A DNA stretch of 64,000 nucleotides. Source: Nitrospirales bacterium LBB_01 (GTDB lineage: Bacteria > Nitrospirota > Thermodesulfovibrionia > Thermodesulfovibrionales > Magnetobacteriaceae). The stretch spans positions 248,001-312,000 of the forward strand of contig CP049016.1 in NCBI GenBank assembly GCA_004376055.2. Reading direction: 5' to 3'. Under the pieces are notes generated by a model. It saw only the letters and a list, made by a program, of their open reading frames with translations, did not search any database and was not told where the DNA came from. How positions within the stretch are numbered: the first letter of the stretch is position 1; each line of letters begins with the position of its first letter. A program made the translations under genes and the position numbers. Of the stretch, positions 14,892 to 18,928 are shown in pieces.

Positions 14892-15719
14892 ATGGACTTA
14901 TCTCTTTTATCAGTTTTTACAGCAGGGATATTAGCGTTTCTTGCTCCTTGTGTGCTGCCGATTGTTCCAGCTTATTTGTCTTTTATAGCCGGTGTGGAGG
15001 GGGGCTCTGATTCAACCGACATCAAACGCAATATGTCAAAAACCCTCATTCCGATTTGTTTTTTTGTGCTGGGGTTTTCTGTTGTGTTTATTATTATGGG
15101 AGCAACTGCTACTGCGCTTGGGCGTTTTCTGGTTGACTACCAACAGTACATAAACCGTATAGGAGGCGCTCTCGTAATATTTTTTGGTCTTCACTTTACA
15201 AACCTCTTTTTGCGTGAGGATTTTGTTAAACTCTTTGCTGGAATTGGACTTCTAATAGCCGGAGCGTTTGCTTTTGAGATTATTGGGCAGCAGGATTTCC
15301 TGACAATTATGGGCGCATGGGCTGTTGTGTTTGCGCTGTATTTCTTTTCGGCTCATTTGCTTCTATATAGGCAGCTTAAGGCTCAAAACAATGCCGCCGC
15401 CGGTATGTTTAGCTCATTTGCTGTAGGGCTAACCTTTGGCGCTGGCTGGAGCCCCTGCATAGGCCCAATTCTCGGCTCAGTCCTGCTTTTGGCCTCAAGG
15501 CAGGACTCCGTCTATCAGGGGATGCTGTTTCTTGCCGTGTTTTCACTTGGGCTTGGTATTCCTTTTATCGTTGCCGGTGCTTTTTGGGCAGGGTTTCTTA
15601 ATTTTGTCAGGAAATTCGGTAAATTCTTTGCCCTTGTAGAATTTGTGGGCGGCGTTTTATTAATAACACTTGGCTTATTACTGCTAACCGGAAAACTATC
15701 CGTACTTTCTGCTTGGTAA
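14892..15719 (+). CDS. ccdA: CcdA/DsbD-type thiol-disulfide membrane transporter
   Basis: 275-aa polytopic membrane protein that carries reducing equivalents across the inner membrane to periplasmic thioredoxins, supporting cytochrome c maturation. The two conserved Cys-containing helices are visible: LAPCVLPIVPAYLSF (near residue 23) and GWSPCIGPILGSVL (near residue 191), each with the expected Pro. Six or more hydrophobic segments follow. It opens an operon with two dihaem lipoproteins and a TlpA-like thioredoxin (17026-17556), its likely partner. Confidence 0.93.
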   Translation: MDLSLLSVFTAGILAFLAPCVLPIVPAYLSFIAGVEGGSDSTDIKRNMSKTLIPICFFVLGFSVVFIIMGATATALGRFLVDYQQYINRIGGALVIFFGLHFTNLFLREDFVKLFAGIGLLIAGAFAFEIIGQQDFLTIMGAWAVVFALYFFSAHLLLYRQLKAQNNAAAGMFSSFAVGLTFGAGWSPCIGPILGSVLLLASRQDSVYQGMLFLAVFSLGLGIPFIVAGAFWAGFLNFVRKFGKFFALVEFVGGVLLITLGLLLLTGKLSVLSAW

Positions 15720-15725
15720 ACAGGT

Positions 15726-16382
15726 TTGATAAAGATCTATAAACTCATAAGAGCGCAAAAAATTACAATTGCAGGCTCTATGTTACTTACATTGTTGACT
15801 TTAGCTGTGTTCTCATGCGGCTCTGACAGCGGGGGCGGAGATAGCGGCTCCTCTTCAGACACCACTACAACGACAACCACAGCATCACCCTCAGCAACGT
15901 CACATAATCAAGGACTGGACTGCTTATACTGCCATGTTACAGTGTTCACTACCGGCAGCAAACAACTACTTATCGGAGGCACTGTGTTTAAATCCATTAA
16001 TGTCTCAGATATTGATAACGTAACAAATACCTGTAATGCTTCAATAAACGTACAATTCCTTGATTCCTCACGTAATGTTGTTTATGACTCCTTAAACTAC
16101 ATTGACACAATCTCATCTGTGGACAACGGAACAGGAAATATATTTATCCTTTCAAGAAAGCTTTCTACCTTAACTGGAGAATACTATATGCGATTGGTGA
16201 CAAGCGACAATACAACAATTGCTCAGAGTAGTAATCGTCACACCTTTACAGATGCTTACGGCAGTTCAAATCCTACTGATTTATTTAACAGATACTCATG
16301 CAACGCTTGCCACACTGCAAATCCACAAGGCGGAGCACACGGGTACTTGTATCCAAATGTGAACTCATCAAAATGTTATTAA
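15726..16382 (+). CDS. Dihaem c-type cytochrome lipoprotein (copy 1)
   Basis: 218 aa. A Lys/Arg-rich n-region and hydrophobic stretch end in the lipobox LAVFSC (Cys31), then a Gly/Ser/Thr-rich linker. Two haem motifs are present, CLYCH (just after the linker) and CNACH (near the C-terminus), with a beta-rich segment between (LIGGTVFKS, NGTGNIFILSR). It is thus probably a lipid-anchored periplasmic or outer-surface dihaem cytochrome. The start is a TTG at 15726; the ATG at 15780 would delete the charged signal-peptide n-region, so the longer form is kept. The next gene is a close tandem paralogue. No exact family is recognised. Confidence 0.8.
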   Translation: MIKIYKLIRAQKITIAGSMLLTLLTLAVFSCGSDSGGGDSGSSSDTTTTTTTASPSATSHNQGLDCLYCHVTVFTTGSKQLLIGGTVFKSINVSDIDNVTNTCNASINVQFLDSSRNVVYDSLNYIDTISSVDNGTGNIFILSRKLSTLTGEYYMRLVTSDNTTIAQSSNRHTFTDAYGSSNPTDLFNRYSCNACHTANPQGGAHGYLYPNVNSSKCY

Positions 16383-16400
16383 AGAGACGGAGAGACGAAC

Positions 16401-17015
16401 ATGAAGATGGTGTGTAATCGTTATGGGTTGTTAGTTGTACTTGTGCTAATGTCTTTGGTGACAGTTTCTTGCGGTTCAAGCGGCAGTGACGGCGGCTCAT
16501 CATCATCGTCCTCATCATCAGGCTCAGGCACTGGCTGGCATAATCAGGGCAGGGATTGCCTCTATTGTCACAACACTGACCTTACTGCTGACAAACATTT
16601 GCTTATCGGAGGAACTGTATTTAAAACTGTTACCGTCTCAGATGTTGACAACACAGCAAATGCCTGTAATACCACAGTGTATGTCCAATTTGTTGACAGT
16701 GCATTTAAAGTTGTTTACGACTCATCAAACTATACAGACACGACATCCTCTGGAAATAACGGCACTGGTAATGTTTTTATTTTATCGAGACAACTTTTAA
16801 CACTGACCGGACAATATTACATGCGGCTTGTAACCAGCGACAACGTCACAATCGCTCATAGCAGAAATCTCCACAGCTTTACGAGTGCTTACAGCAGTTC
16901 AAATCCGTCAGATTTACTAAACAGGTACTCATGTAATGCTTGTCACACGGCAGCGCCTCAAGGTGGAGCGGATGGTTATTTGTATCCAAACATAGATTCG
17001 TCTAAATGTAATTAA
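16401..17015 (+). CDS. Dihaem c-type cytochrome lipoprotein (copy 2)
   Basis: 204 aa, a tandem paralogue of the preceding gene, with the same plan: lipobox VTVSC (Cys24), Ser/Gly-rich linker, CLYCH, LIGGTVFKTV, NGTGNVFILSR, YMRLVTSDN, CNACH and a C-terminal YLYPN motif. Differences are spread evenly along the pair, which suggests an old duplication with both copies under selection. It starts 19 bp after copy 1 and is followed 11 bp later by the TlpA-like gene. It probably passes electrons at the cell surface together with the other products of this operon. Confidence 0.82.
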   Translation: MKMVCNRYGLLVVLVLMSLVTVSCGSSGSDGGSSSSSSSSGSGTGWHNQGRDCLYCHNTDLTADKHLLIGGTVFKTVTVSDVDNTANACNTTVYVQFVDSAFKVVYDSSNYTDTTSSGNNGTGNVFILSRQLLTLTGQYYMRLVTSDNVTIAHSRNLHSFTSAYSSSNPSDLLNRYSCNACHTAAPQGGADGYLYPNIDSSKCN

Positions 17016-17025
17016 AGGAGGTAGG

Positions 17026-17556
17026 ATGCTTGCGAAATTCTTGAAAATATCACTAATTGCTATGATGTTGACTGTATTTACGGCTGCATTTGCTTTTGCC
17101 ATACCGATGGAGGGTCAACCTGCGATTGATTTTAAACTTCCGGAATTTTTTGATACCACTAAAGTGTATTCGCTGTCGGATTTTACCGGCAAGGTAATCC
17201 TTTTAAACATATGGGCAAGCTGGTGCACTGGCTGTCAGGCTGAGATGCCGGAGTTTATGGCGCTTGCCGATGACTTTAAGGACAAAGGGTTTGTTATAGT
17301 AGCGGTGTCTGTTGACAATGACGCTGCAAAAGCCGTTGATTTCCTAAAAGACCTTGAAGCAAAGACAGGGAAAAACTTAAACTTCACCACTCTTTACGAC
17401 AAAGACAAAAAGATAGCAAAAGACTACAAGCCACGTGGAATGCCCTCCTCCTATCTGATAGATAAAACCGGTAAAATCAAAAATATTTTCCCAGGCTCCT
17501 TTAGTGCGTCAAATATAGGCGCTCTAAAAGCTGCCATCGTGGAGCTGCTTAAATGA
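17026..17556 (+). CDS. TlpA/ResA-like periplasmic thioredoxin
   Basis: 176 aa with an N-terminal signal peptide or anchor (residues 1-25) and a thioredoxin-like fold of the AhpC/TSA-Redoxin type. The active site is WASWCTGC (Cys67 and Cys70), and the cis-Pro segment is RGMPSSYLID. It likely keeps haem-binding Cys pairs of the neighbouring cytochromes reduced, taking electrons from CcdA encoded upstream. An AAAGGAGG ribosome-binding site precedes the ATG. The stop overlaps the next start by 4 bp. Confidence 0.9.
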   Translation: MLAKFLKISLIAMMLTVFTAAFAFAIPMEGQPAIDFKLPEFFDTTKVYSLSDFTGKVILLNIWASWCTGCQAEMPEFMALADDFKDKGFVIVAVSVDNDAAKAVDFLKDLEAKTGKNLNFTTLYDKDKKIAKDYKPRGMPSSYLIDKTGKIKNIFPGSFSASNIGALKAAIVELLK

Positions 17557-17780
17557 AATCGTTTGTTTTAGCGATAGTGATTGCTACAATTACTATGTTA
17601 ACGTCATGTTCTGAAAAACTTGCAATCGTTAAGCCGTATGAGAGGGAGTTTTTTGCAGAAGATAGGATGTTTTTTAGCCCTATGGAGGGGCGCAGCGAGT
17701 GGGAGGGGCACGTATTTTTGGTTAAAGAGGCGGCACAAGGCGGCGAGGGCTCATTTCAAGGCGGATGCGGCTGCAGATGA
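17553..17780 (+). CDS. DUF4266 small lipoprotein
   Basis: 75-aa lipoprotein: a hydrophobic leader, lipobox MLTSC (Cys19), then the DUF4266 pattern VKPYEREFFAEDRMF and a C-terminal Gly-rich tail with GGCGCR. DUF4266 proteins are typically encoded next to DUF3570 proteins and often near ApbE-type flavin transferases. The start codon overlaps the TlpA-like stop (ATGA), and the 3' end overlaps the DUF3570 gene. Function is unknown; association with extracytoplasmic flavin/haem redox clusters is family knowledge. Confidence 0.8.
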   Translation: MKSFVLAIVIATITMLTSCSEKLAIVKPYEREFFAEDRMFFSPMEGRSEWEGHVFLVKEAAQGGEGSFQGGCGCR

Positions 17781-18928
17781 GACTGCTGAAATTATCTAAA
17801 ATTGTCGCTGTTATTATATTTGTGCTTTTTTCATTTGCTGCGCTTAACGCTGAGGAGTTAAAAGACAAAATTTCACTCGGTTATGATTTCTACACAGATA
17901 GCGGTGACACTAAAGTGTATTCTCCAAACATTGGGATTTATAAAAAAATAACTGGTAACTTTCTAATAGGTGGAAAACTTCGGGTGGATGCCATAACATC
18001 GGCTACTATGTCAAACGGCGGACGAAAAAATACTGTTGACGCCGTAACAAGCGCAACCCGGTCGCATGGAACATTTGACGAGATGCGATATGCTCCTAAT
18101 ATTTTTGCTGAATATAAAGATGATGAAAACGCACTGACTCTCGGAGGCTATTACTCTACAGAAAATGATTACATAGGCCGCTCTTTATATGCCGATTACA
18201 CTCGCCTTCTTAATGAGCAAAACACTGCTTTAGGGTTAGCTGTTTCCTATGCTTTTGACAAATGGCGTCCGTCATTTTCAAGAGTACTCTCAACATATGA
18301 CAGAAACGAGACCGATATAGACGCCTCTGTTACACAGCTGTTTTCTCCCACATTTTCCGGTCAGCTTGTTTACTCATTTATTGAAAAGGACGGCTATCTG
18401 GCCTCTCCCTACTATTACCTGACTACAAAAACGTTTAGTGTCTTTGAGCGTTACCCAGAGCGTAGAACAGGGCACGCATTGGCGTTTAAACTTATAAAAG
18501 CACTTGACCCTCTTACAAGTCTGCACTTTAAGTACAGGCTCTATACCGATACGTGGGATATAAACGCTCACACGTTTGAGGTTGAACTGTATCGTGAAAT
18601 CGCAAAACCTGTGACTTTTGGAGTTAGGTACAGATTTTACACACAGGGAGCCGCCGACTTTATGAAACCCATCAGTCAGTATAAAAGAAATGACCAATAC
18701 ATTGGAGTTGACTACCGATACAGCGCCTTCAACTCAAACACCTTTGGACTTGCGCTTATCTTTAAACCCAAAACGACTGAGACCGCATTTATTGACTTGA
18801 ACAAGATGAAAATAAAGTGCAGCGCCGACTATTACGTCACATCTAAAAACGATTATATTCGGTATTGGTACGATATGGACAGAATGAAGGCGCTGCTTAC
18901 ATCTCTGACAATTGACTACGAGTTTTGA
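17777..18928 (+). CDS. DUF3570 outer-membrane beta-barrel-like protein
   Basis: About 383 aa: signal peptide, then a long series of alternating beta strands rich in Tyr/Phe and ending in DYEF, as expected for an outer-membrane barrel. Near the N-terminus it has two copies of a VDA[IV]TSAT motif (17984-18062), the DUF3570 signature that resembles sites of ApbE-type covalent flavinylation. The ATG at 17777 overlaps the DUF4266 stop; another ATG at 17765 is possible. Together with the dihaem lipoproteins it could form a conduit for electrons through the outer membrane. It is convergent with ubiX. Confidence 0.78.
   Translation: MRLLKLSKIVAVIIFVLFSFAALNAEELKDKISLGYDFYTDSGDTKVYSPNIGIYKKITGNFLIGGKLRVDAITSATMSNGGRKNTVDAVTSATRSHGTFDEMRYAPNIFAEYKDDENALTLGGYYSTENDYIGRSLYADYTRLLNEQNTALGLAVSYAFDKWRPSFSRVLSTYDRNETDIDASVTQLFSPTFSGQLVYSFIEKDGYLASPYYYLTTKTFSVFERYPERRTGHALAFKLIKALDPLTSLHFKYRLYTDTWDINAHTFEVELYREIAKPVTFGVRYRFYTQGAADFMKPISQYKRNDQYIGVDYRYSAFNSNTFGLALIFKPKTTETAFIDLNKMKIKCSADYYVTSKNDYIRYWYDMDRMKALLTSLTIDYEF

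Follow-up and report, generated by a model that had tools for sequence, protein, structure and literature searches.

How might a bacterium deliver electrons to its outer membrane with an operon that encodes thiol, flavin and haem carriers side by side? The question is raised by a locus of Nitrospirales bacterium LBB_01, which we analyzed within a window of 64,000 nucleotides (contig CP049016.1, positions 248,001 to 312,000 of the forward strand). The operon occupies window positions 14892-18928 (contig 262892-266928) and consists of six complete open reading frames, all on the + strand, encoding in order a CcdA-type thiol transporter, two dihaem lipoproteins (A and B), a TlpA-like thioredoxin, a small DUF4266 lipoprotein and a DUF3570 protein. 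Gaps of 6, 18 and 10 bp separate the genes at the first three junctions, and the genes overlap by 4 and 16 bp at the last two (tlpA-like/DUF4266 and DUF4266/DUF3570). Thus, the compact six-gene layout and the two CxxCH motifs per lipoprotein described in a first-pass annotation of the sequence were borne out.

We propose that the operon encodes a variant DsbD-type flavinylation system to which haem carriers have been added and in which a dithiol relay charges a surface flavin that in turn feeds the haem lipoproteins, and our judgment leans modestly toward this reading. CcdA would bring thiol reducing equivalents through the inner membrane and hand them to the TlpA-like thioredoxin. From there they would pass, probably via a CxC motif of DUF4266, to two covalent flavin mononucleotides (FMN) on a DUF3570 barrel. 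The FMN would convert two-electron thiol chemistry to single electrons, and lipoproteins A and B would carry these onward to an acceptor located at the cell surface or the outer membrane. FMN accepts two electrons and donates one, and haem accepts one, so that a thiol-flavin-haem order is chemically sensible. The analysis itself establishes the gene content, the conservation in three phyla, the motifs, the predicted barrel and the side of its loops, and that CcdA and DUF3570 vary together; we infer flavinylation by a distant ApbE, haem attachment, the order of the carriers, the outward direction and the surface location. The first-pass annotation had already suggested a chain made of haem and flavin carriers, and this is still the best reading, with the amendments that DUF3570 itself would be the flavin carrier and that the dithiol start of the relay (CcdA, the TlpA-like protein and the DUF4266 CxC) had been left out.

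The putative dihaem partner of DUF4266 and DUF3570

Lipoprotein A (218 aa, TTG start; 15726-16382) and lipoprotein B (204 aa; 16401-17015) are about 64 to 66% identical. Each contains exactly two CxxCH motifs, CLYCH and CNACH, located at 15921-15935 and 16299-16313 in A and at 16557-16571 and 16932-16946 in B; other CxxCH-bearing reading frames of the window have one apiece. A and B are the only members of their family in the host genome, as judged by family searches, which also gave the host gene counts for apbE, DsbD_TM and FMN-binding domains used below. Neither protein matched a Pfam family, an NCBIfam family or a solved structure above threshold, and membership in a known cytochrome family was rejected on that ground. 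When 11 family members were aligned, of which those other than B are 34 to 73% identical to it, a common layout emerged: a candidate lipid-bearing cysteine, a linker of low complexity and varying length, CxxCH, a middle region, [NRM]xYSCNACH and a terminal cysteine. Both CxxCH motifs (with C, C and H of the CLYCH site of A invariant in its homologues), the candidate lipid cysteine, two more cysteines and two more histidines are invariant across the 11, and thus the CxxCH motifs are not due to chance. Among the invariant residues (B numbering), His47 and His158 are candidate distal haem ligands, and Cys89 and Cys203 may form a disulfide. The middle region was predicted to be β-rich at low confidence, and an AlphaFold model of the protein was poor (mean predicted local distance difference test [pLDDT], 60) and was set aside. 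Haem would be attached to A and B at these motifs, and the host genome encodes ResB, of cytochrome c maturation system II, at 2.84 Mb.

Do the dihaem proteins belong with their neighbors? A profile of the dihaem unit scanned against 84,980 species genomes retrieved 11 dihaem loci, from Nitrospirota, Aquificota (Aquificaceae, Hydrogenothermaceae and one unclassified carrier) and Campylobacterota (Helicobacteraceae and Sulfurimonadaceae). The dihaem gene lay upstream of DUF4266-DUF3570 in all 11, with a TlpA gene in between in 10; the remaining locus, L042, lacks TlpA. Chance clustering is ruled out by the 11 of 11 independently retrieved homologues in the same neighborhood, and the gene order that the first-pass annotation had proposed to seek in other genomes is therefore conserved across three phyla. 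Five of 397 Campylobacterota genomes had a dihaem match, and the six full-length matches (two of them in G308) were all in DUF4266-DUF3570 clusters, each with ApbE downstream. The weak matches examined elsewhere in those genomes were longer three-CxxCH relatives located away from DUF3570 (L097-L100). A longer relative with three or four CxxCH motifs also occurs directly upstream, or one gene beyond, in Aquificota and several Campylobacterota. We note that at L100 (4692-6996; G310) the three-CxxCH lipoprotein relative adjoins TlpA-like and ApbE genes with neither DUF4266 nor DUF3570, and an ApbE substrate not yet recognized is possibly involved there.

When 31 DUF3570 proteins were placed in a maximum-likelihood tree, those from haem-bearing clusters grouped in a single clade that spans three phyla (15 rows, 100/99). 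The haem state requires three changes on this tree, which may represent one gain and two losses. Within the host family, the tandem A/B pair is confined to the host genus (the host genome, G002 and G003), a fused form with four CxxCH motifs occurs in other genera (L023 and L034, and partly read in L026), and G013 has the bare core. A tree of the single units placed the A and B copies and the fused N- and C-terminal halves in separate groups with moderate support, which suggests that the unit was doubled twice, gene conversion being possible. That two lipoproteins are required was rejected, as most loci have a single one and as the A/B copies and fused halves are separate in the unit tree. Thus, the duplication emphasized by the first-pass annotation is a real tandem pair but only a genus-level detail, and what is general is a single dihaem lipoprotein in each cluster, doubled in the host genus and fused in other genera.

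The predicted DUF3570 barrel and its putative flavins

Where the flavins would sit depends on the DUF3570 protein (17765-18928; PF12094, E value of 1.1e-40). Its AlphaFold2 model, built from a 10-sequence alignment, has 16 long strands (mean pLDDT, 79), and the Foldseek matches of the model are outer-membrane barrels (OpdP/OpdK, OmpG, AlgE and FadL). The β-barrel-like product noted at first pass is accordingly a predicted 16-strand outer-membrane barrel. Loops of 28, 12, 23, 27 and 15 residues follow strands 3, 7, 9, 13 and 15, with both termini on one side, and six of the seven turns on the opposite side have 2 to 6 residues and one has 14. Two flavinylation-like motifs, DAITSAT (aa 75-81; 17987-18007) and DAVTSAT (aa 92-98; 18038-18058), both fall inside the loop of 28 residues that follows strand 3, one of those on the long-loop side; the first-pass annotation had overlooked them. 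In outer-membrane barrels, the side with the long loops usually faces outward. By this rule, the DUF3570 flavins are predicted to lie at the outer face or just within the barrel mouth.

Is DUF3570 flavinylated in this host? The canonical motif is D-x-x-[S/T]-G-A-[S/T], and the host protein has Ser in place of Gly at both sites while retaining Asp, Ala and the acceptor Thr. Asp75, Ala80, Asp92 and Ala97 are invariant among the 10 aligned members from three phyla, and haem-bearing members have Ser or Ala at the Gly position of site 1 throughout. Méheust et al. 2021 (PMC8238504) showed that a DUF3570 protein of Chlorobium is flavinylated at two sites by its ApbE. In another target, a Gly-to-Ala substitution cut flavinylation to about 50% and did not abolish it (reviewed in PMC12052999); no test of Ser at that position was found in the literature searched. 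Given Ser at both sites and the partial effect of Ala, we consider flavinylation of DUF3570 likely, not certain. An apbE gene, which the first-pass annotation had proposed to look for elsewhere, is indeed present in the host genome as a single copy at contig 237764-238594, 24.3 kb upstream of the operon, and the distant ApbE would presumably modify DUF3570. The host genome also has two FMN-binding-domain matches, and these proteins could be other ApbE substrates. In many loci of relatives in Aquificota and Campylobacterota, apbE is adjacent to the cluster. Finally, a second full-length ApbE is encoded in G002, G003, G006 and G015; three of these four genomes have DUF3570, on a different contig from the second ApbE, which might be a dedicated copy.

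The proposed thiol relay and the direction of electron flow

The relay would begin with ccdA (14892-15719), which encodes an inner-membrane thiol transporter of the DsbD_TM/CcdA type (PF02683, 9.7e-16) with both transmembrane cysteines (LAPC..P and WSPC). The TlpA-like periplasmic thioredoxin (17026-17556; Redoxin/AhpC-TSA, with Redoxin at 2.2e-27) has the active site WCTGC, both cysteines of which are kept in all 10 members aligned, and is a weak match (E value of 0.11) to PF13899, the thioredoxin family named by Méheust et al. The DUF4266 lipoprotein (17553-17780; PF14086, 8.6e-14) ends in GGCGC, invariant in 11 aligned members. Moreover, the overlap between DUF4266 and DUF3570 (17765-17780) is exactly 16 bp here and in L021-L024, L026, L033-L036, L038-L042, L052, L059-L062 and L093-L096, in three phyla, so that the DUF4266 end CGC[RK] and the DUF3570 start M[RW][LM]Q are encoded by common bases. 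The conserved overlap suggests strict translational coupling. All six genes of the operon are under purifying selection (ratio of nonsynonymous to synonymous substitution rates, 0.08 to 0.25, for the host genome versus one genus mate), and promoter and terminator scans of the operon gave nothing beyond chance level.

CcdA and the TlpA-like protein could instead be the thiol-reducing arm of maturation system II (CcdA-ResA). They would then hold the cysteines of the CxxCH motifs in A and B in the reduced state needed for ligating haem, and the flavin barrel would serve a separate function. The pair does resemble that of system II (CcdA-ResA-ResB-ResC): ccdA is the sole DsbD_TM gene detected in the host genome, ResB is encoded elsewhere in it, and the best NCBIfam match of the TlpA-like protein, below cut-off, is ResA. 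The host resB is distant from ccdA, however, and across relatives CcdA follows DUF3570 rather than ResB. CcdA homologues of more than 65% identity were found in all six DUF3570-positive genomes of the host family and in no DUF3570-negative genome. Two relatives that are 100% complete, G001 and G011, keep ResB with neither CcdA nor DUF3570, so that CcdA tracks DUF3570 and not cytochrome maturation. Moreover, in G013, as in many other Nitrospirota clusters, the TlpA-DUF4266-DUF3570 core is present but haem proteins are not. We therefore disfavor the view that CcdA is in the operon for haem maturation; it probably does not serve mainly in haem ligation, and we regard the system II explanation as unlikely.

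Do electrons flow outward? One Hydrogenothermaceae locus (L036, 8460-8960) has a gene for the catalytic chain of ferredoxin-thioredoxin reductase (PF02943) between DUF3570 and apbE, and in two Campylobacterota loci the next gene downstream is DsbD-like. Both point to thiol flow from the cytosol to the outside. The chain might instead run inward or sideways. In that case an external donor or a different cytochrome would supply electrons to the haem lipoproteins, and the role of the flavin/thiol branch would be to dispose of them or to sense redox state. The chemistry of haem and flavin is reversible, and c-type cytochromes adjoin some DUF3570 loci, including a pair with 9 CxxCH motifs and with 10 in an MtrC/MtrF-like protein. 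CcdA/DsbD, however, normally exports reducing power, and the co-occurrence of ferredoxin-thioredoxin reductase or DsbD points outward; we think an inward or sideways chain very improbable. That a c-type cytochrome can exchange electrons with a thioredoxin-like protein has precedent in the reported reduction of CcmG by NapB (PMC8782879).

As for what the outward chain would reduce, the foremost guess is Fe(III) or some other extracellular oxidant. Alternatively, the chain might work as an assimilatory reductase, acting on Fe(III) or Fe(III)-chelates at the outer membrane for iron uptake instead of respiration. Low-flux assimilation would suit a reductase driven by thiols or flavins, and Méheust et al. 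(PMC8238504) report a VIT1 iron transporter in 25 DUF3570 clusters. Against this, no iron transporter gene was recognized in the operon or in the immediately flanking genes scanned, and it is not obvious why assimilation would need a haem carrier. We give an assimilatory role slightly less credence than the system II explanation.

Weighing the proposed haem-equipped flavin system

How does the haem-equipped flavinylation system relate to those already described? According to Méheust et al. 2021 (PMC8238504), there are 285 flavinylation clusters with DsbD, most of which have DUF3570, DUF4266 and a thioredoxin-like protein. The host operon likewise brings together CcdA/DsbD, a thioredoxin-like protein, DUF4266 with its C-terminal CxC and DUF3570 with two flavinylation-like sites. 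It differs from the system as set out there by the addition of two dihaem c-type lipoproteins, by Ser for Gly at both sites and by an apbE outside the cluster, in-cluster ApbE being typical and not obligatory in that definition. In the passages of PMC8238504 on cytochrome, heme and barrel, no barrel is mentioned, nor is any haem partner for DUF3570, and Méheust et al. 2021 was the only work in the literature searched to name DUF3570 or DUF4266. Thus, the combination that the first-pass annotation could not assign to a described system has a DsbD-type core after all, whereas its haem part was not found described in the literature searched. The thiol-flavin core was already known, and what is added here is the conserved haem module and the predicted outward position of the flavins.

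Porin-cytochrome conduits such as MtrCAB also join an outer-membrane barrel with cytochrome lipoproteins. In them a multihaem cytochrome runs through a large barrel and the electrons come from quinol-linked cytochromes, whereas the host would use a 16-strand flavin barrel (as modeled), electrons from thiols and two haems per lipoprotein; no multihaem periplasmic cytochrome is encoded in the operon. Gram-positive flavin-based extracellular electron transfer (Light et al. 2018, as cited in PMC8238504) shares ApbE-type covalent flavins on an exported protein and differs from the host system, which has a Gram-negative outer-membrane barrel, thiol input and a haem partner.

Other genes encoding CxxCH motifs neighbor DUF3570 clusters elsewhere. 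In one Nitrospirota genome (G097; L053, 3928-8327), an Mtr-like set is divergent beside TlpA-DUF4266-DUF3570-ApbE; its members are a CxxCH-free protein of 405 aa, a protein with 9 CxxCH motifs and an MtrC/MtrF-like lipoprotein with 10. About 2 kb upstream of the DUF3570 clusters of other Nitrospirota (L057, L059-L062 and L065) is a gene for a protein of 811 to 827 aa with two or three CxxCH motifs, the L062 copy of which has a match to PF18582, the middle domain of hydrazine synthase alpha. Beside three haem-bearing Campylobacterota clusters (L039, L041 and L042) are a DUF1501-type gene in divergent orientation and a gene for a 780-aa protein with two CxxCH motifs, which is DUF1592/DUF1588 in L039 and L042.

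Several observations weigh against a haem-equipped flavin chain. DUF3570 was above cut-off in 24 of 296 Nitrospirota genomes, and no dihaem protein of the A/B kind was found in the Nitrospirota DUF3570 clusters fetched outside the host family. Most DUF3570 clusters lack the dihaem protein, as does the core of G013 within the same family, and the haem step is therefore optional. The lipoboxes of A and B are imperfect (VFS-C and TVS-C), and one genome without DUF3570, G008, carries a CcdA homologue of 61% identity. Both host flavinylation motifs read TSAT and not the strict [S/T]GA[S/T], the partial loss caused by Ala elsewhere bears on them, and apbE is not in the host cluster. Finally, the pLDDT of the motif loop is below 50, so that the outward position of the flavins rests on strand order.

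Nevertheless, a haem partner stands beside DUF4266-DUF3570 in every full-length-match locus examined, in three phyla, and together with the predicted outward flavin loop it yields a concrete and testable chain from thiol to flavin to haem in the Gram-negative envelope. We tentatively extend the proposal, as a possibility we hold doubtful, to a thiol-powered outer-membrane conduit common to Nitrospirota, Aquificota and Campylobacterota, in which two surface FMN on a barrel would be charged by dithiols (ultimately from thioredoxin or ferredoxin-thioredoxin reductase) instead of quinol and would feed surface haem lipoproteins. If true, these bacteria would have an electron route to the outer membrane that does not take quinol as its starting point.

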